Shown here piece after piece: positions 1,106 to 64,000 of a stretch of 64,000 nucleotides of DNA. Source of the DNA: Heliocidaris erythrogramma (Eukaryota; Echinodermata; Echinoidea; Camarodonta; Echinometridae); assembly GCA_025617745.1 (NCBI GenBank), contig CM046861.1:18387563-18451562 (forward strand). Reading direction: 5' to 3'. The translations under genes were made by a program, and so were the position numbers. Position 1 is the first letter of the stretch. Each line of letters opens with the position of its first letter. The notes beneath the pieces were generated by a model. It saw only the letters and a list, made by a program, of their open reading frames with translations. It ran no database searches and was not told the DNA's origin.

Positions 1106-1148
1106 GTCTGCCCAAGGAGTTATCACATAATAACTCCTTGGTCTGCCC
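1106..1148. mobile_element. 27-bp palindromic mini-insertion with 8-bp target duplication
   Basis: The octamer GTCTGCCC at 1106-1113 is repeated exactly at 1141-1148. Between the copies sits a 27-bp near-perfect palindrome with arms AAGGAGTTA / TAACTCCTTG. A second palindrome with the same arms, also flanked by a 7-8 bp duplication, lies at 26272-26304. Two independent cases of the same core with different flanking duplications argue for a mobile insertion rather than a chance hairpin. No known superfamily fits something this short. Confidence 0.6.
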
Positions 1149-1548: not shown

Positions 1549-4303
1549 ATGGCTAACCCAGACACTGGAACTCACCAAGTGGTAATAATAGTAGTTCTAA
1601 GTGTCGTCATCGTTCTGTTGGTAATACTCGTTTTGTTGTTAATCATCTACATCGCATTGCTCAAGTGGAAAAAAGGCCAGAGACGTCGTTCTGAGCGCGA
1701 TGTCCAACGTCCGATCTCGCTAATGCACCATGAACCTTCAAACTGCATCATATCAAGAGCAATTAATTCAATAAGCGATTACCACATTATGAGGGCTCAT
1801 GAGAACACGAAGGTAAATCCTGCTTATGTCCCAGAGCTGGAGGACGAAAGGTTCCAGAATAGTCCTACTCGTGGATGTGGCCCTTGTGATGGTGATTCAG
1901 GAGGGCATGAGAACGAATTAAACATGGCTCATGAACAAGCAGATGTATTAACTCCAGCCATTTGTGGTAGTGGTCGCCTAGATAGTGAGCTGATGGAGCT
2001 ACTGAAGACAGATATGACGGAGAGTGTTACGTTGAAGGTGGACAGCAAATTAGTGGTGTTCATATCACGAGAGATCGATGATACAGGCGGAACTCTTGTC
2101 CTGGACAAGATGGGTATCTCACTTCTCATTCCACCGTGCGCCATTCCTCGTGGTCAGAAGAAAATCATCCAACTGGTCCTTGACTGGGACCTCAGTGACT
2201 TTCCACAGATGAAAGATACCCAGACCATAATAAGTCCTGTGGTCCACTGCGGACCACATGGACTCAAGCTCGCAAAACCAGCTATCCTTAGCTTTATGCA
2301 TTGCGCAGATGATGTAAAGGATGTTGTCGTGCTGTCTAGCGAGACGCATTTGACTCAGGACAAGCACTGGAAACCCCTGCAGCATCGGAAGAATTGTGGC
2401 AAGGTTGAATACGCGCTTCTTGAAAACCAGTGCCAGCTATACCTTTCTCATTTCTCTCTATACACATGCATTGCTGAAGGATTACATTCACAGTTAACCA
2501 AGAAGTGGATTCAGCTGGCCGCGTTCGGAAAGAAAGAGGGAGGACAATTCCAGGTGTTCATATACATGCTTAACAACACGCCATGTGCTCTGCAATTCGC
2601 GACCCAACAGCAAGCACAGTACAACTGCTCCATGCTTCGATGTCCCTTGGAGTTTCTGATTGATGAGGAAGGAGGGGACCTCGTCTTCGATTTGAAACAC
2701 GTGAGCCAGGGATGGAATCCTGTCGGACGCAAGTGGGAGGAGGTCGGCCTCTTTCCTGACATCTGGCAAGGAAAATGCAACAACATTTCTTTCACATTCA
2801 AACAGGACAATCCAGCCTGCACTGACCTCAACTTCAATATATGTCTCTTCCAGAAGGACATGGCTGACGTTAAGCGACATTTTGAAGTCGCAATTTCGTT
2901 CCCAAATAAATGTTCAACCAGAAACACACGAAGACTATTACATCCCACCACAAAACTAAATGTGCATCTTTCCAATGCGCTGCCTTCCGTAATCATCAAC
3001 GGATTTGATAGCGGTATCTCAACCACCGCGTCGGAGACGACCTCTTATAAGTCGATGGTAATGGATCATTACCCCGTGATCAGTCACGAGGTTAACATTG
3101 ATAATGACGACAAAGATGACCAGTCGTACCAGATGGTCGTGTCGGATTGCTGCGGGGGAGATCAGGCCTATGATGGAAGCGAGGACAGTGATGACGATGA
3201 TGACGAAGAAGAAGAAGATTTTGGGGATGTCACATCAACAACGAAAGAAGGTCACCTTGGCAACGGCGGCATATTGGAGGCAAGCACACGAGACAAACGG
3301 TCGAGGACATATTCTGGAATAAGTACCAAATCGACAAAGACAACAAACATCAATATTCACACGGTAAGTGATTTCTGTCTCATTTTCTGATAATTTATGT
3401 TGGAGACTAAGTACAGTTGAATGAGTTGATAGCCTACATCAAGAAATATTAAACAACATTTTTTTCAAAGTCTTATGTACAGCGTGCCTTTTCGATATCT
3501 GAGAAAATTCGTCTGCATTTTGCCACAATTTCCTCTTAATCTTTATATTTTCGATTGATCTTATGCCTTTTCTTTTCTCTCCAAGAACAAACCAGTCAGT
3601 TAAATCGACCAATTGGTAAAAAAAAACATCTACCGTAATGATGTTACTAGCTATCAATTGAAAAAATGTTAGCAGTATTTAATATTTTCATATAAATTGA
3701 GATGATGTTCAATGTAAGAAAAACGTCTATTCAATAACATTGTATTTTTTGTCATCAACTGAACTAATCAGAAGCTATTATTTGAGATTATGGAAGGGAT
3801 GAAGATACTGTGCTTATCATCAATAACATGGTTTAAGTCAGACTTTGTACAATTATTCTTCCATATTCATCCAGGAGACGATAGTTCAGCCTCCAACATC
3901 CCGCGATCACCGTTATCTCCTGCAGGATGACCCTCCTATCGCTGTCTTTCCTCTTCGTCTCCGATCGAAGCTTGCCGCCTTTTTGGACCCTCCCAGTCAT
4001 ATTGCTTCCTCTGTCAACGACTGGCGAGTTCTGGCTGAAAGCCTCAATCTGGATTCCTTGGTGAGTCTGATTCGTATGAAGCTGAGCCCCACGGAGGAGC
4101 TGTTGGACGTCGCAGCGCAGAGAGGGAAGGACTGTCGGTGGCTCTATGGAGTTCTTCGTGATGCCGAACGCCATGACGCGGCGGACGAGGTAGCGCAGTA
4201 CTTGGGTGATGGTGACGAGTCGGTAATACATAACACAAACAATCATGTGGACGAGGATGAAGTAGGATGCAGGGATGCAAGCATTTCGGAGACGCTCGCT
4301 TAA
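1549..4303 (+). CDS. UNC5C-like protein (membrane anchor, ZU5, UPA, death domain)
   Basis: Two exons, 1549-3363 and 3875-4303, join in phase 0 (donor GTAAGT at 3364, acceptor ending CCAG at 3874) and encode about 747 residues. Residues 11-38 form one hydrophobic segment followed by KWKKGQRRR, a signal anchor that should place the rest in the cytosol. ZU5 spans roughly 178-275, UPA roughly 315-435, a linker with a long Asp/Glu run roughly 515-560, and the death domain is in exon 2. There are no Ig or thrombospondin repeats, so it is not a canonical netrin receptor in this gene model. It resembles vertebrate UNC5CL/ZUD, a death-domain adaptor linked to NF-kB and JNK signalling. ZU5 plus UPA in a single large exon is unlike intron-rich UNC5A-D and suggests an expanded intron-poor lineage. 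The ATG was chosen because it directly precedes the anchor; an upstream exon cannot be excluded. The function is inferred from the family. Confidence 0.88.
3875..4303 (+). CDS. UNC5C-like exon 2: death domain and C-terminus
   Basis: This terminal exon opens in phase 0 with ETIVQPP and ends at TAA 4301-4303, giving 142 residues. The stretch from PLRLRSKLAAFL through WRVLAESLNLDSLV to DAADEVAQYL has the spacing and hydrophobic pattern of the UNC5 death domain (Pfam Death), including the conserved DW..LA segment. The ~35-residue acidic tail after it has no recognised motif. No AATAAA is visible between the stop and the transposon starting near 4425, so the poly(A) site is unassigned. Confidence 0.85.
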   Translation, partial: ETIVQPPTSRDHRYLLQDDPPIAVFPLRLRSKLAAFLDPPSHIASSVNDWRVLAESLNLDSLVSLIRMKLSPTEELLDVAAQRGKDCRWLYGVLRDAERHDAADEVAQYLGDGDESVIHNTNNHVDEDEVGCRDASISETLA

Positions 4304-5063
4304 AGTAACTAACGCATGATATATATCTAGCATTACCATAAGCGATATGCCCGTTGCACACAATTATACTTATGAAACCATTTCAATTGGAATACCAATG
4401 CTAACATAAACGTCTTCCCTTATGTCTCGTTTTGGCGAAAAAGGGGGAAAAGTAGAGGTTTTGGGACCGTTCCTTAAAACTCGTGAGCTGATTGGCTAAT
4501 TGACGTCACACCCCAAGTGACGTATGAAGAGTAAGAGGCACAAGATCTGCATGCTGCAGCATATAACATTGTACACACAATGAGGTATTTGACCCCTCTG
4601 TTCAACGGACAATTTATGAAAAAAAGGAAATTAATCAATATAATCTTAGGAGTGAATAATCTTTATCAATATATTTTCTACAAGATCAGCAAACACTTTT
4701 GCCCAAATATATAGCTCTTGTTTTGAGCTTGCCGAACGAAAGCTTTGCATTGGTCTTAAACGTGTGCACAGCCGTTTTATGCGTCTGTACAATGTACTAC
4801 ACATCTTTAGTACGCCAGTTGCTATGTTCCCCTCACTTAGGACTTTTTTTTTTTTTTTTACTTCGCTTTACATAGTACGGTAGTACTGACTTAGATTTTG
4901 GCTGAATTCGAGTAACTTATATAGAGAGATGAAAAGTAACCATGATTCCGAGTTGGAGGACTTTTTGAGCCATCAGATCCCGAAGGTAAAGAAGCTCGAG
5001 TGGCAAGGAGAATTCGACCAAATATGTTTGAACCCGGGGCCTGGTGAAGGGGCCGTAGGTGAA

Positions 5064-5107
5064 GTAACTCCAGGGAGCCCCAACGCGTTGGAGCTCCCTG
5101 GAGTTAC
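5064..5107. repeat. 44-bp near-perfect palindrome (CTCCAGGGAG arms)
   Basis: The two 22-nt halves, GTAACTCCAGGGAGCCCCAA... and its mirror, pair with one mismatch around CAACGCGTTG. The paralogous element at about 63500 has only the CTGGAGTTAC half, so most of this hairpin is an addition in this copy. Related arms occur at 45874-45948. Confidence 0.7.
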
Positions 5108-5115
5108 GGGTGAAG

Positions 5116-5191
5116 TAGACCGAAAAATTCTGTCTCTCGTTCGTTAGCTCTTCACTTAGCTAACGAACGAGAGTCAGAATTTTCGGTCTAT
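5116..5191. mobile_element. 76-bp palindromic insertion with 8-bp target duplication
   Basis: A nearly complete palindrome (TAGACCGAAAAATTCTG ... CAGAATTTTCGGTCTA) is flanked by GGGTGAAG at 5108-5115 and 5192-5199. The homologous site in the paralogous transposon (about 63508-63530, other strand) has a single GGGTGAAG and no palindrome. It is therefore an empty site, which directly shows insertion with an 8-bp duplication. It has no coding capacity. Confidence 0.75.
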
Positions 5192-5522
5192 GGGTGAAGC
5201 TGCTGGAGACGATGTCGTTGAAAAAACAGATTGAAAGACTTGACTCCTGATCTTTAGAATCTTTTAGCTAGCTTATCCTTTTCTTCATGCCAAATTCGGA
5301 ATACAGGCCAGGATCCTCAAAATCATCTTTGGCAACTTGATCACTGCAGATTGTACTCCATTCACTTGGCCGGCCCTTGCCACTCTGCCCGCGTGAGCTT
5401 TACCTTCGCGACCCACAATTTCCATCTTTAGGAAAAAGAATGCTTACATCATCTTTAGGGGTCTTGCTATAGAGCGCAACTATACACCGATTCGGCATTA
5501 TTGATGAAACTGTGTCCCCAAA

Positions 5523-5764
5523 CAGGGGCGGGTCTAGCTTTTTTCCAAGGGGGGGGGGGGGGGAGTTTCACCCAACGACGATGCAGAGCATCGTGCACAA
5601 GCCGCGTAGCGGAGAGCCAATTTTTTTTTTCTATTTTGAACCCCCGTAAGTGATGTTTTCCTGGCATCTACTAACGCCTGAGACAGAGTGCTATAGGAAC
5701 ATACTGTGTGGGTCTGGACATATTATGATGGCGTTTTTCTATGCACATTAAATTTTTACTTGGT

Positions 5765-5796
<32 letters not shown>

Positions 5797-5811
5797 GTAG
5801 ATCCGCCACTG
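5523..5811. mobile_element. CAGTGGCG-type nonautonomous DNA transposon, nested in the THAP element
   Basis: The ends CAGGGGCGGGTCTAG and GTAGATCCGCCACTG are imperfect inverted repeats. The flanks are CCAAA at 5518-5522 and 5812-5816, and the uninterrupted paralog near 63190 has a single CCAAA, so insertion with a 5-bp duplication is visible. The interior has a 28-bp poly-C run (5769-5796) and other G/C tracts and no convincing ORF. The CAG/CTG ends recall hAT elements, but a 5-bp duplication is short for hAT, so the superfamily is open. Confidence 0.75.
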
Positions 5812-6013
5812 CCAAATCAACGTTATTGTGAGGAATTAAACACGAAAATATACAGGTGGGTGGAATATTTTCCCTTACTTTTTGTACGTCACAGATCAAG
5901 TGATCACGATGTCGCTTCGATAGTTTTTTTTTAGGGGCGGGGCTTATGACTGTGTAAATCTGCAAAAATGTACTTTTCAAATGATTATGAAATACGACTG
6001 AATGCATAAAAAA

Positions 6014-6959
6014 GTTTAAAGGATATCACTCTTTCGTGAAACAAGAAACACTTACACCCCGACGCTGGACTTAAGCTCGGTTTATAAGTCGAGTATTACA
6101 AAGCGACTGTTCAGTTCTCTGTCCTAGATAGAGCTTAGGGTTTCCTCATGTGAATACTATATTTCAACATTTCACCCCTATGAATATGTTCATACTACTT
6201 TTTCGTCTTTCGCAAATACAAATATTGCCAATAATTCACAGGCACTCACATATTTGTACTAAGGGTGTTCACTTATAAAGATGACGACAAGTCTTTCAAG
6301 TCGTGCACATACTAACCATGCTAACAACCGATTTGAAGATCAATTATATCAAAACATCTAAAGGAAATATTCAGATAGTAATGACCAGTCTATGTTATAC
6401 ATTTACATGCATTTATGTTACATTATCTTCCTTTCTATCAGTATTATTTTTCGTGATCTATAGAGCATAATAATTCCGAAATATGAGAAAGAAAGCATAT
6501 CGTATTCATTGTTATTATAATTGTGATATTTTTCAAAATGATTTATACTGTACATATACCTAGTATAGCGATGCAATTGCCATTAAAATATCCGCTATTC
6601 AACCATTCCGATATGTGTGTGTTATAAAATTTGACAATTTACTTCCAAGTTCTTTCGTTTTTTAAATACCCCCTATTAGATATTCCATAATTTGATCAGT
6701 TCCTTCATCTATTGAAGTATTAAAATGACCTCATTTTGTCCTAGCGCCTGAATCAAAGCTATCATGCAAGAACTATAAACTGATTCAGCGGACCCAGGTT
6801 TGGAGACTGAGTCCACGTCTTTCGGATAGTGACGTTAAAGGTCACTCAAACGTAAATAGATCATATCTGATTGATACACGTCTGTAAAAATTCAATTTAC
6901 ACATACATATGAAGTATTAAAATGACCTTCATTTTGTTCCTCCCCCCCCCCTAGACAAA
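6014..6959. other. Non-coding, AT-rich
   Basis: No gene is recognised. A ~25-bp direct repeat around GAAGTATTAAAATGACC occurs at about 6713 and 6911. Confidence 0.6.
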
Positions 6960-10234: not shown

Positions 10235-10728
10235 AATAGTAATTAGACCAAATGGTCATTAGGCCATATGAAAATTAGACCAAATGATAAATAGTCTAAC
10301 TGGTTATTAGACGAATTGGATATTAGACCAAATGTTCATTAGACCATATGACAGTTAGACTAAATGATAAGTAGCCCAACTGGTTATTAGACTAAATGGA
10401 ATTGGACCAAATGATAGGTAGACCATATGGTATTAGCCAAAGTAGGTGTAGCCCAAATTGATATTAGACTATGTGGCTTGTAGACAAAATGACTGTGAGA
10501 CTATTTGGAAATAGACAAAGTGAAAATTAGCCGAAGTGAAAATTAGCCCAAATGGGTTTTAGACTAAATGGGGTTAGCCAAACTGGGTATTAGACGAATT
10601 GGTTATTAGGCCAAATGGAAATTAGACGAAATAGTAAGTAGACAAACTGGTTGTAGACAAAATGAATTTAGACCACGTGCAGTTCGACGAACTGATAATT
10701 AGACCAAGTGGTGGTAGACCAAGCGACA
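10235..10728. repeat. Right outer tandem-repeat arm of foldback 1
   Basis: About 500 bp of TTAGACCAAATGG-type units. The distal half (10490-10728) pairs with 7786-8025; the proximal half has no partner on the left, so the arms are unequal in length. Confidence 0.75.
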
Positions 10729-26263: not shown

Positions 26264-26311
26264 GGTGTAACCAAGGAGTTATCACAGAGTGTGTTAACTC
26301 CTTGGTGTAAC
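26264..26311. mobile_element. 33-bp palindromic mini-insertion with 7-8 bp target duplication
   Basis: CAAGGAGTTATCACA...TGTTAACTCCTTG at 26272-26304 has the same arms as the palindrome at 1114-1140. It is flanked by GTGTAAC at 26265-26271 and 26305-26311 (8 bp if the adjoining G is counted). Confidence 0.6.
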
Positions 26312-57682: not shown

Positions 57683-57686
57683 TTAA

Positions 57687-58033
57687 ATGGTTACTAAAAT
57701 AGAAAATTAATGGTCCATTTTTTGTAGGAAGGAGTCATCAGGAGCCAAAAAATATCTATCACACACTTTTTTATGCATTCAGTCATATTTCATAATCATT
57801 TGAAAAGTAGTTTTGCTGATTTACACAGTCATAAGCCCTTCATACGTCACTTGGGGGTGTGACGTCAATTAGCCAATCAGCTCACGAGTTTTAAGGAACG
57901 GTCCAAAAACTTCTACTTTTCCCCCCTTTTCGCCAAAACGAGACATAATTTGGACAATCAGATGCCAAATTTGTGATTGGAAGGCAAAAATACATGGAAA
58001 CAGCACCACTTTTCTCTCTAATTTAGTCAACCT
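57687..58033 (+). mobile_element. Kolobok-like MITE, 347 bp, end-to-end with the previous element
   Basis: TTAA at 57683-57686 and 58034-58037 flanks ATGGTTACTAAAATAG and CTAATTTAGTCAACCT. The left half matches the 5' end of the THAP element at 62860, and the right half matches the 3' end at 4425-4530, so it is an internally deleted derivative. It carries TGACGTCA and a CCAAT box (GACGTCAATTAGCCAATCAG). Confidence 0.8.
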
Positions 58034-58039
58034 TTAAAG

Positions 58040-59807
58040 GTCTTCTTCTACATGCAGCATTTTACATCCAAAAGAAATAAACTACATATATATTTTTTTC
58101 ATCTGTGTGCTTTGGAAATCTCCAAATTACCTCTGGGAAACTAAGAAGGGGAAAAAAAGAGCTCAAGGAATAAACAAAATAGACCTACATGATCAAAACC
58201 CTTTGCCAGGAAATGTAATTTTTACATAAGAAATCTAAAAAGAGCTCCTGTGAACAAAGAGGTTTTTCCCCTTCTTTTTTTAAAAACAATATCAAATAAG
58301 TAGTACTATATGATTAAGCATGGTAGTGAACATGCTGTAATTTCTCAATTTCCATAGATTCCAACCTCTGAAAGTGGGTGATGAGGGACATTAAATATTT
58401 TTCATGATTCTTTTTGTTGTGCAGCAAGTCTGGTGAACTTTGGTTAACTTTTACTCCTATTGATTCTAAAGAAAGAATATTTTTTTGTAAAGAAATATGT
58501 CTAAATGAATGAAACTTCTGAATGGAGATGTCATTAGCATTCATTTGTTGCTATTCTTTCTCTAAATATTGCAAATTCAGTGAATTTTTCTCATAAGAAA
58601 AAAAAAATGCAGATGAATTAAACGTGTTGGTTCTATGTGTGCGAACACAACCTCATTGTCTGTAAAAGTAGTGAATCATGATTGATGTACATTTATATGA
58701 ATCGTCATACAATATAAATTTTCGCTTCACTGTATACAATGTACGGTATGATATTCTTAGGCAATTTTGGTCTGTCCTTTACAGATAACAAAAGTTAAAT
58801 TCCCCCTGTGTCATTCACTGATATCAAATATATGATAGCCTTTCTCTAAATAGGTACATTAAAATTTCTGTATATCATACCAATGATAAATTAATCATCA
58901 AATCATTAATTGCCAAATTATCAAAATTATTGAATGGTATTAAACTGTCTCTTCAAAAGCACTTTACTACCTTATTGTGGAAGGCCTAAAATACTTGTCT
59001 ACCTTCTTTACTATCCCTCACATAGAGAAAATTTAACCAAACCAATTAATAAGCTCTTGTCTCGTAAAAAATGTGATTGCAGATGACAAATTTCTACTGT
59101 TGCCTTCCCACTGATAGAGTAGTAATTTCTCAATCAATTACAAGGAACACACTGGATAAAGACCTCCGATATTTCACTTCAGATGAGGTACAGAGAGAGC
59201 GCCATGCATTGCCCAAATTCTTCTTAATTATCTCTTCTCTTCCCAGCCACATTCCCATGTCTGGTGAATCTGCTTTGAATGACAAAGCTTGGTATCTAGT
59301 CCAAGAACTGGCCTATATCCATTCCCTTTCATAAAACAGTAACCTACATGTTGTAGAGTTTTCAGTTTATTGACTGCTCCAAGTCCCCTCCCCCCCCCCC
59401 CCCTCCATTTTTATCCACGTACGTCCAGCCCTGTATTCTTCTTAACAATTTAAACCTGACACCAAGTTTAAGTTCAAACTAAGACAAGTTTAATGCAGGG
59501 ACAACTTGGACAAAAGAGCTTTGGCTAAACTTTAAACCAAGCTTTAACCCAGTTTAATATTGAATTATGGCCATTTTGCTCATGGTCAGATTAATCCATT
59601 TGAGTACAGTATCTCCTTTTAGCAAAGTTCTTGGATTATCTGTTGTTCCAGATTGCTAGGAATTACACAATATATATAGCATAAAGAGCAAATATCACAA
59701 ATTTCGAGTCCACTTCTGTACGTTGTGCCATTCACGAATAAGAGTGATTAAATTGTAACAAATCATTAAAGTATCGAAACAAGCTGCTGAAAACTGCTTA
59801 TCCAATA
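58040..59807. other. Non-coding
   Basis: AT-rich; a C run at 59392-59404. 59440-59560 (AGTTTAAGTTCAAACTAAG, AACTTTAAACCAAGCTTTAA) may be an eroded relative of the element at 48219-48473. Confidence 0.5.
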
Positions 59808-61640: not shown

Positions 61641-62855
61641 CTCAATTTTATTTTATAAGTTCAGACAAGGTCAAACAAACAAAAAAAAAAAAAAAAAAAA
61701 TGCAATGTAACATTTGTGTAGTCCCATATATACAAGTTACATGTCCAGGTAAAAAAAACCTGCCGATTTTTGTTTTTTTTTCTCCTTTTTATTCATTCAA
61801 TTTTTACAATCTTAGCTGCTCCTGGAAGGTAACCCATTTAGCAAACTCTGAGGGTGGTTTACATGGCTCACAGTATGTGGGAAATGGTGATATTTAGATC
61901 TATAGCTCTCTCCACACACAGTAAATTGATCCCATGTACAGCTCCGTAGGCCAGTACCAGATTGATAAGCCAAGGAGCTTGTACAGCTAGGCAGTATCTA
62001 CAGGACGTCTACTAAACCTATGCAAAGTTTTACAGAATTTTCTGCGAGTGATTCTGCAAAAGGGATGAAGTACCTTCAATAGATAACTACATGTATTTCA
62101 CAACTTGAATTGGATGAATCTCTGTCGTTACTGGCCATCTTGTGAAATAATCCACTGTTAATTCACTGTGTACACAAAGAACTGATACTGTGCAAAGTGA
62201 ATGAGGGCTGGACTATTTCACAAGAATGCAATGATACTAAAAGCCTGAACATACCTTTCCTGATCTACAACCATCTTGAAACACTGCAACTCAAGTCATG
62301 ACAAGATGGTAAGTTCCACACCATCTGAAAAAGCTGTTAATTCCACTTGTAAATCCTTCACAGACAGCTTCCAGAATGTTTTAATCTAACCACATCGATA
62401 GATTACCTCCCTTCATTCAAATATTAACCATTTATTCCCTAACATAAAATGTTTCTTTTTGCATTCAGGAGTCTAAGAAAACCCTTTTGCAAGTCACAAT
62501 TCCCCAAGTGCTATTCACATCCTGTATTTCATACTTCTAAGGATTCAAAATTGCCAAAGCCATTTACTTGCAAATTCTTGCAAATTCTTGCAAATACTTG
62601 CAACTACATTGTATCTGCTTGAGAAACTTGTGCAAAGTGCATTGCTTACAATTATTTCAAAACCATCTGTTTGCTTTGATGGGCCAACATTGCAATAATT
62701 CCTCCCATTGTTATACTGCACATGTTTAAAATTCAAAGGGCAACAGTTTTTACATGTATGTACATTCTCTTTATCTAAAGTGACAAAAGAGAGCCATGTG
62801 TTGTGCATCCCACAGCCTGTATGTGTACATGTACATTTACAAGGCTATATTTATG
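61641..62855. other. Non-coding
   Basis: A 20-A run near 61681 and AT-rich sequence; no gene or element is recognised. Confidence 0.5.
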
Positions 62856-62859
62856 TTAA

Positions 62860-64000
62860 AGGGTGACTAAAACAGAAAATTAATTGCCCTTTTTTTGTAG
62901 GAAGGAGTCATCAGGAGCCAAAAAATATCTATCTCATACTTTTTTATAATCATTTGAAAAGTTGCTGATTTACAGAGTCATAAGCCCCGCCCCTGAAAAA
63001 ACCCATCAAAGCGACATCTGATCACATGATCTGTGACATACGAGAGGTAAAGGAAAATATTCCACCCATTTGTATACAAAGCCCGCCCGCAGGCTTTGCA
63101 GGCCCAGCCCGGTACGGTGCCGAACTCAAGCATGATGTTCACCGCATCGACCATTTGCATTGCATATTTTTGTGTTTAAATCCTCACAATAACGTTGATT
63201 TGGGGACACAGTTTCATCAATAATGCCGAATCGGTGTACAGTTGCGGGCTGTAGCAAGACCACTAAAGATGATGTAAGCCATGGAATTTGCAGGTCGCAA
63301 AGGAAAAGCTCACACGGGCAGAGTGGCAAGGGCCGGCCAAGTCAGTGGAGTACAATCTGCAGTGATCACTTTACCGAAGATGATTTTGAGGATCCTGGCC
63401 TGTATTCCAAATTTGACATGCAGAATAGGAGAAGCAAGCTAAAAGATTCAGCACCTCCAACGATCAGACTTGGAGTCAAGTCTTCCAATCTTTTTTCAAC
63501 ATCGTCTCCAGCAGCTTCACCCGTAACTCCAGGCCCTGGCGCGTCTTCTGCGAGGGGTTCAAACATATAACATGGTCGAATGCCCCTTGCCACTTGAGCT
63601 TCTTTGCCTTTGTGATCTGACAAATCTTCTGATAAATCAGAGTTCGTATCTGGCTTTAAAAAAATCCTCCAACTCGGAATCGCGGTCACTTTTCATCTCT
63701 CTATATCAGTTACTTGTATTCAGCCAAAATCTAAGTCGGTACTTCCGTATGTACATGTAAAGCGAAGTAAAAAAAAAAAAAAGCCAAAAGCGAAGTAAAA
63801 AAAAGCCGAAAGTGAAATAAACAAAAGCACTAACCAGTCGCTAAGTATGAGGGGAACATACATGTAGTTGCTGTACTAAAGATGTGTAGTACATTTTACA
63901 GACGCATAAAACGGCTGTGCATGCGTTTAAGACCAATGCAAATCTCTCGTTCGGCAAGTTCAGATGTATGAGAACATTGTTTAAAAAAGTTAAAAAACAA
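62860..64000 (+). mobile_element. Kolobok-like THAP transposon, copy 2 (runs off the window)
   Basis: TTAA at 62856-62859 is followed by AGGGTGACTAAAACAG, the terminal repeat seen in the MITE at 57687. The next 130 bp match that MITE, then comes a THAP frame at 63223 and sequence matching copy 1 through 63960. The right end lies beyond the window. Whether a transposase core follows cannot be seen here. Confidence 0.75.
63223..63570 (+). pseudogene. THAP zinc-finger reading frame of the transposon
   Basis: The 115-residue frame has Cys5 and Cys10 (MPNRCTVAGC), Trp42 and CSDHF (Cys46, His49), so the C2CH ligands and the CSDHF signature remain. The middle, where copy 1 keeps ILFPKD, is deleted, which shortens the domain and probably destroys the fold. 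After residue 115 a stop follows, while homology to copy 1 continues in other frames. THAP fingers bind DNA at transposon ends in related systems; this one is likely inactive. Confidence 0.7.

Follow-up and report, generated by a model that had tools for sequence, protein, structure and literature searches.

Results

Two palindromes lie side by side within a THAP-encoding element

The stretch of Heliocidaris erythrogramma DNA analysed here (64,000 nucleotides; hereafter, the window) contains two palindromes, H1 and H2, that are directly adjacent within a copy of a THAP-encoding, TTAA-flanked element (the host). On the plus strand, positions 5056–5199 read TAGGTGAAG, H2, CGGGTGAAG, H1, and TGGGTGAAG, with H1 and H2 set between consecutive copies of one 9-bp target. 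The features, with target-site duplications abbreviated to TSDs, are as follows.

1106..1147, plus strand: CAAGGAGTTA hairpin (1113–1140) with a 7-bp TSD, GTCTGCC, on each side; a separate family
4420..6015 (approximate), minus strand: host copy carrying H1 and H2, THAP-encoding, Kolobok-like, non-autonomous; delimited by BLAST against loci L031, L032, and L036
5056..5064, plus strand: outer target repeat TAGGTGAAG beside H2, 7/9 identical to CGGGTGAAG
5065..5106, plus strand: H2, a 42-bp palindrome and putative relic of a second inverted-repeat family with 9-bp TSDs
5107..5115, plus strand: left 9-bp target repeat CGGGTGAAG (direct reading), common to H1 and H2
5116..5190, plus strand: H1 hairpin, 42 bp plus 32 bp corresponding to opposite ends of a ~430-bp inverted-repeat element
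5191..5199, plus strand: right 9-bp target repeat TGGGTGAAG, 8/9 identical to the left one
26265..26311, plus strand: CAAGGAGTTA hairpin (26272–26304) with a 7-bp TSD, GTGTAAC, on each side; a separate family
57683..58037, plus strand: short, internally deleted relative of the host with TTAA at both ends
62852..64000, plus strand: paralogous host copy without H1, running off the window (the 63-kb copy, L039)
63515..63523, plus strand: single CTTCACCCG, the empty site of H1
63524..63533, plus strand: H2 scar, comprising the first 10 bp of H2 (TAACTCCAGG) followed by a deletion into the right flank

The folding energy of H1 is –33 kcal/mol (z = –11.3), a value that none of 200 shuffled sequences equalled. 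An earlier, sequence-only reading of this DNA had described a 76-bp hairpin with an 8-bp repeat; hairpin and duplication are both real, but they measure 75 bp and 9 bp in the window copy, the discrepancy having arisen because the right repeat begins with a mutated base, which was counted as hairpin. The same reading missed the second palindrome, H2 (5065–5106), directly beside H1.

The window was also scanned loosely for inserts with outer inverted arms (9 bp or longer) between near-flush repeats (6 bp or longer). This returned H1, H2, the two CAAGGAGTTA hairpins, and two further inverted-arm stretches with short flush repeats, at 10291–10361 and 58471–58560; 20 shuffled sequences gave 0–3 hits each, which is the chance level of the scan. 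The host copy is interrupted at about 5523–5811, where an insertion with long G and C runs is found. A 613-aa reading frame (1549–3390) harbors a ZU5 domain and a UPA match slightly under the cut-off, and may be netrin-receptor-like.

Left ends of the host read TTAAAGGG in 11 of 15 cases (exceptions: L013, L018, L019, and L032), and its right end was TTTAGTCAACCT-TTAA in L032 and a close variant, also ending in TTAA, in L031; the span between the ends is 1,709 bp in L032 and 1,942 bp, insert included, in L031. A THAP domain (PF05485) was detected in the one copy tested, that at 63 kb (E = 8.9e-07; 30 bits, cut-off 23.9). In a study of Xenopus Kolobok elements (PMC6004289), the superfamily is characterized by a THAP domain, an RR terminus, and insertion at TTAA. 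The host likewise possesses TTAA ends, an AG-type terminus (AGGG...), and a THAP domain, and we class it as Kolobok-like from its target, terminus, and THAP exon, the one exon seen; a copy measures about 1.7 kb (L032).

H1 is an insertion with a 9-bp target duplication

We searched 1.06 Gb in 26 contigs with H1 plus flanks (2064 first-look candidates) and with H1 alone (2050), scoring 40 candidates and reporting 80 matches in each search, the palindrome matching both strands; some of the genome search counts given here and below are lower bounds. H1 lay in the context of the THAP element at all 30 loci that were cut out (the window copy and 29 others), and was 74 bp long in 28 of the copies read and 75 bp—as in the window—in two. 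Because these 30 copies have flush 9-bp repeats at the borders of H1, perfect in 17, 8/9 identical in eight (the window copy included), and poorer in five, the target duplication is 9 bp; CTTCACCCG stands on both sides in 17 of the 30. The original claims of an insertion that duplicated its target, and of a paralogue without H1, are both right. In two host copies (L022 and L038), the palindromes are rearranged and the H1 or H2 arms lengthened by the target repeat, which suggests hairpin-driven rearrangement following insertion.

H1 matches both ends of a longer inverted-repeat family

The sequence at the end of H1 also occurs in many dispersed copies. Preceded by a base other than G, the family end TAGACCGAAAATTCTGTCTC had 520 + 556 exact matches (reversed control, 0 + 0), although some of these 1,076 may be host copies, given that the filter omits the usual host flank (G) and not host copies in which this base has changed; the 100 matches listed were all on contigs C1 and C2. 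We fetched 13 inverted end pairs, spanning 103–733 bp, of which eight fell between 420 and 464 bp. Inverted terminal repeats were present in all 13, the pairs having been chosen by their ends, and a flush 9-bp TSD was perfect in ten, 8/9 identical in L072, and absent from L070 and L077. The TSD thus has a constant length, as in MITEs, and its size of about 9 bp, found in both the H1 and the H2 family, is that of Mutator-like (MULE/Phantom) elements. H1 consists of the exact 42-bp prefix and 32-bp suffix of L071 and L076, two of the eight ~430-bp elements compared, while the other six carry changes near an end relative to H1. By its sequence, H1 is therefore most likely an internal-deletion relic of this longer, 9-bp-TSD family.

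The sequence-only reading had proposed looking for a longer element with such ends that could supply a transposase. The longer element exists, at ~430 bp, but a transposase-encoding form was not found, nor was any transposase linked to the H1, H2, or CAAGGAGTTA family; at two of the 31 loci matching a MULE transposase (PF10551) that were read, the exact H1, H2, and CAAGG end strings were absent. The 733-bp form (L081) was rejected as an autonomous partner, its extra part being a different, abundant repeat. This ~331-bp repeat was scored at 39 further places with 97–98% identity, the first-look candidates numbering 2412, and from its identity would be young as well as abundant.

Short forms in which the right flank is changed were represented by 33 + 23 matches at 43 distinct places (13 listed on both strands). 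Of the 20 places fetched, six are host copies; the 14 outside the host comprise seven with a perfect 9-bp TSD and seven with no clean TSD. Of the 23 places left unread, a dozen or more have a centre like TAAGACGAC; the five places read with such a centre (L126–L130) are all host copies. The seven TSD-flanked forms outside the host (75–86 bp) occupy six distinct targets, and could be taken to mean that H1 is a transposing hairpin DNA, that is, a 74-bp palindrome integrating as such at a staggered cut, as could the 26-bp palindrome L083, whose ends are those of H2 and whose 9-bp TSD is perfect (see below). They possess seven different centres, however, as expected of separate internal deletions (20 of the 43 places read), and ~430-bp forms account for eight of the 13 end pairs fetched. 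We therefore consider an integrating hairpin improbable; given the seven centres, longer elements seem to have collapsed separately to give the hairpin-only forms found outside the host. One target, GGGTTAGCA/TGCTAACCC, recurs with forms of 74 (L117), 79 (L118), 84 (L125), 103 (L080), 112 (L187), and 114 bp (L077), with the repeat perfect on both sides in L118, L125, L080, and L187—a size series that would fit either a centre that has eroded or several insertions at this target.

H2 belongs to a second family with 9-bp duplications

The H2 end, again with a non-G base in front, had 308 + 336 matches (control, 0 + 0). Five of nine H2 pairs fetched measured 533–580 bp, and the others 26, 48, 1011, and 4481 bp. 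A perfect 9-bp duplication was found in four (L083, L086, L088, and L089), among them L083 (G000:C1:28703100-28703190), whose 26 bp form a perfect palindrome that bears H2 ends and lies between two copies of ACTCAGACA. The remaining five lack a direct TSD: the flanks are inverted repeats in L082, L085, L087, and L090, and L084 has none. An inverted-repeat flank is common to L082, L087, and L090. As an autonomous partner, the 4.5-kb form (L082) was set aside; the reading frames in its insert are presumably of non-LTR retrotransposon type.

Host copies are found empty, with H2 only, and with both palindromes

We fetched 30 further loci with the 63-kb copy as query. In the sequence-only reading, this copy had served as the empty site of H1. 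It does have a single CTTCACCCG and no H1, but the site is not pristine, as the target repeat is followed by ten H2 bases and then by the far flank. Other copies are clearer. L042, L043, and L050 have a single target repeat and neither palindrome, and L046, L048, and L068 have H2 and a clean H1 empty site; H2 is shortened in L041. H1 and H2 occur together in many host copies, and further copies have damaged or deleted sites, including partial H1 deletions in L054 and L057. H2 was probably lost in L012 and L030, which have H1 without H2, since both fall within the H1 group next to H2 carriers in the tree.

The host tree started from 60 loci plus both window copies, 62 sequences in all. Seven had no anchor, and 18 of the remaining 55 were dropped beforehand, 11 as duplicates and seven for their poor flanks (L057, L011, L064, L040, L020, L042, and L061, with L040, L042, and L061 being H1-less). 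With the hairpin columns omitted and any H1 remnant scored as H1, the resulting 37 copies require one change of H1 state, a number that none of 500 shuffles reached: the 30 H1 rows lie on one side of a branch and the seven H1-less rows, the 63-kb copy among them, on the other. This branch has a support of 82/73, which does not reach the starred level, and the forks deeper in the tree are weak. A rough tree of all 55 rows placed L042 and L061 among H1 copies; in L061 a deletion spans the site, and long branches join L042 to L020, and these placements would be losses or misplacements. Collectively, the comparison supports—with moderate tree support, hence not decisively—a single gain of H1 in the host lineage, after H2. 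The simplest order would be an empty site, then H2, then H1, then spread by the host; an H1 insertion into the window copy itself had been assumed before, and although the insertion stands, the window copy probably inherited it.

If H1 and H2 were instead ancestral to the host, H1-less copies would have arisen by deletion. Deletions do occur: the 63-kb copy has lost most of H2, L054 and L057 have lost part of H1, and two H1-less copies sit among H1 copies in the rough tree. Nevertheless, three copies show one target repeat and neither palindrome and three more show H2 with a clean H1 empty site, the seven H1-less rows share one side of a branch, and each family has copies at other places, flanked by TSDs of their own. 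These TSD-flanked copies elsewhere make ancestral palindromes very unlikely, and a hairpin ancestral to, and deleted from, the 63-kb copy was not what the 37-copy tree returned (82/73, not decisive). A local origin of the palindromes, by template switching or hairpin-primed copying with repeats due to chance or slippage, might account for the rearranged palindromes of L022 and L038, but has next to no chance in view of the H1-end matches without the host's usual preceding base (even if some are host copies with a changed flank) and of flush TSDs whose length is the same from one unrelated site to the next.

Second insertions land on the duplication of an earlier element

The junction between H1 and H2 has counterparts across the genome. 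H1-type ends face each other across 3–20 bp at 13 places, and the spacing is exactly 9 bp in ten, 15 bp in two, and 14 bp in one. This excess has P = 6.9e-11 if the 18 spacings are equally likely, and P = 9.5e-10 for nine of 12, two of the ten 9-bp junctions having the same spacer and probably being one duplicated locus. Among the 12 of 13 places fetched, L153, L154, L158, and L163 have three target copies, the outer flanks repeating the target (with six extra bases at the inner copy in L163), whereas in L155 the right copy is 10 bp off. No complete target triple was seen in L156, L159, L160, L161, L162, or L164. In L157 (G000:C13:31771270-31772370), which holds opposite H1-type elements, the 9-bp copy in the middle runs opposite to the outer two, as would result if recombination between the elements had flipped the spacer. 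The left partner in L160 and L161 is a sequence that ends in TTTTCGGTCTA, is otherwise unlike the 430-bp family, and lies 9 bp from an H1-type element; such partners are possibly further families with common outermost bases.

Slippage as the source of the doubles is ruled out for L154, L155, L157, and L158, because their elements are oppositely oriented, and for the H1–H2 pairs, because these join different families; it may explain L153 and L163, where the orientation is the same. Searching for H1–H2 junctions with a non-C first base yielded 22, of which 20 have host-target-like spacers (18 of 9 bp, two of 11 bp). The other two lie outside the host, and both are 9 bp: in L187, a 112-bp H1 form and a full H2 element lie among three perfect TGCTAACCC copies, and in L186, where both elements are full, the copies around them read GGTTTAGAC twice and GGTTTGGAC once. 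Across 26 nine-mers of duplications we found a weak G...C edge bias (0.3 bit), which rules out a strong target motif and argues that a motif alone does not explain landing at the same site. Outside the host as well, second insertions have repeatedly hit the very 9 bp that an earlier element had duplicated.

CAAGGAGTTA hairpins form a separate family with 7-bp duplications

Exact CAAGGAGTTA...TAACTCCTTG arms 3–30 bp apart occur at 596 places in the genome (control, 0), forming palindromes of 23–40 bp among the sites listed. Of 40 sites fetched from the head of the list (L091–L110, L133–L152), at least four pairs of which are duplicated loci by their flanks, 29 have a 7/7 duplication, eight 6/7, and three fewer. 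The duplication has a palindromic bias, roughly RTYWRAY. One identical 34-bp core was found with five different duplications, all perfect, and a second core also with five, three of them perfect. The 16-bp family end had 934 + 967 matches (control, 1 + 0). Twenty unpaired ends (L166–L185) comprised nine damaged-arm hairpins with a perfect 7-bp TSD (two of which are near-duplicate loci), two at 6/7, and nine others, and within the ~75 bp examined no longer element was visible beyond them. Unlike H1, the short CAAGGAGTTA form itself seems to have multiplied, and it looks like an extremely small transposon family.

These data do not sustain the suggestion in the sequence-only reading that all such palindromes are one class of integrating hairpins with cuts of ~8 bp: the H1 and H2 families duplicate 9 bp and appear here as collapsed longer elements, and the hairpin-only H1 forms differ in their centres, whereas CAAGGAGTTA duplicates 7 bp around a recurring 34-bp core.

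Discussion

A probable nested relic spread by its host

The 9-bp TSD, the assembly of H1 from two element ends, the existence of a longer family, and the empty, H2-only, and H1+H2 states of the host lead us to interpret H1 as a nested, non-autonomous DNA-transposon relic from the ~430-bp family, lying beside H2 and spread by the host element (probability roughly 0.9). H2, a relic of another 9-bp-TSD family, would have been first at the target within the Kolobok-like element. A ~430-bp element with TAGACCGAAAATTCTGTCTC ends would then have inserted by a 9-bp staggered cut at CTTCACCCG, flush against H2, and the loss of its interior—presumably by deletion, which would look alike in the host copy whether it preceded or followed insertion—would have left both ends as a hairpin. 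Finally, the host element would have copied the double relic to many loci. The 430-bp family was presumably moved in trans by a transposase that we have not seen, and the H1 and H2 families may have in common either their transposition machinery or a target-site bias. What began as an odd hairpin has become a readable record, in which empty, H2-only, and H1+H2 host copies order a nested insertion and its later spread. For the most part, H1 would be an ordinary relic of this kind, apart from the habit of landing beside earlier copies.

Same-site double insertion is a known phenomenon. In Drosophila, double insertion of transposons at one target is reported in portions of two reviews, PMC12628747 and PMC7214746, which credit McGurk and Barbash (2018) with describing a second element inserted into the TSD of the first, giving TSD-E-TSD-E-TSD. 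This arrangement is found in both systems; here, in addition, two unlike inverted-repeat families are joined and opposite orientations are seen, and the accounts of double insertion in those portions do not mention a mixing of families. The 9-bp junctions between H1-type ends (10 of 13) and between H1 and H2 (two of two outside the host) provide a test for the targeting of earlier TSDs, and of whether unlike families have this habit in common.

Several other systems bear resemblance. According to PMC3169594, Tm1 elements of root-knot nematodes (Mutator/Phantom/Foldback type) mostly have 9-bp TSDs with no clear consensus. The elements described here likewise have 9-bp TSDs without a clear consensus and inverted-repeat-rich, non-autonomous copies of variable length; in contrast to Tm1, the H1 family has no linked transposase, and the two are likened by TSD and structure. 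Plant Mutator-like elements with multiple TIRs also present inverted-repeat ends side by side, but the part of PMC3310237 that describes them reports no TSD at the internal TIR, hence no nested insertion, whereas a 9-bp TSD copy lies between the elements here. Bacterial REP palindromes, as portrayed in PMC3733652, are short and of high copy number, as are those described here, though ours reside in an animal genome and have TSDs of fixed length.

Tentatively, and with the odds somewhat against it, one may go further and regard inverted-repeat ends as the unit of both mobility and targeting. A 34-bp palindrome (CAAGGAGTTATCACAG...) would then move as such with a 7-bp TSD, and H1 and H2 would use one machinery that prefers earlier TSDs and builds target-element arrays. 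If true, this palindrome, with little beyond its two 16-bp ends, would be among the smallest eukaryotic transposons. In a limited search of partial sources on very short or palindromic MITEs, from which absence is not proven, we noticed none of ~34 bp for an animal. Though distinct from the H1 finding, the CAAGGAGTTA family was the most surprising thing met in this analysis, and it bears on the minimum size at which a eukaryotic transposon is still able to move.
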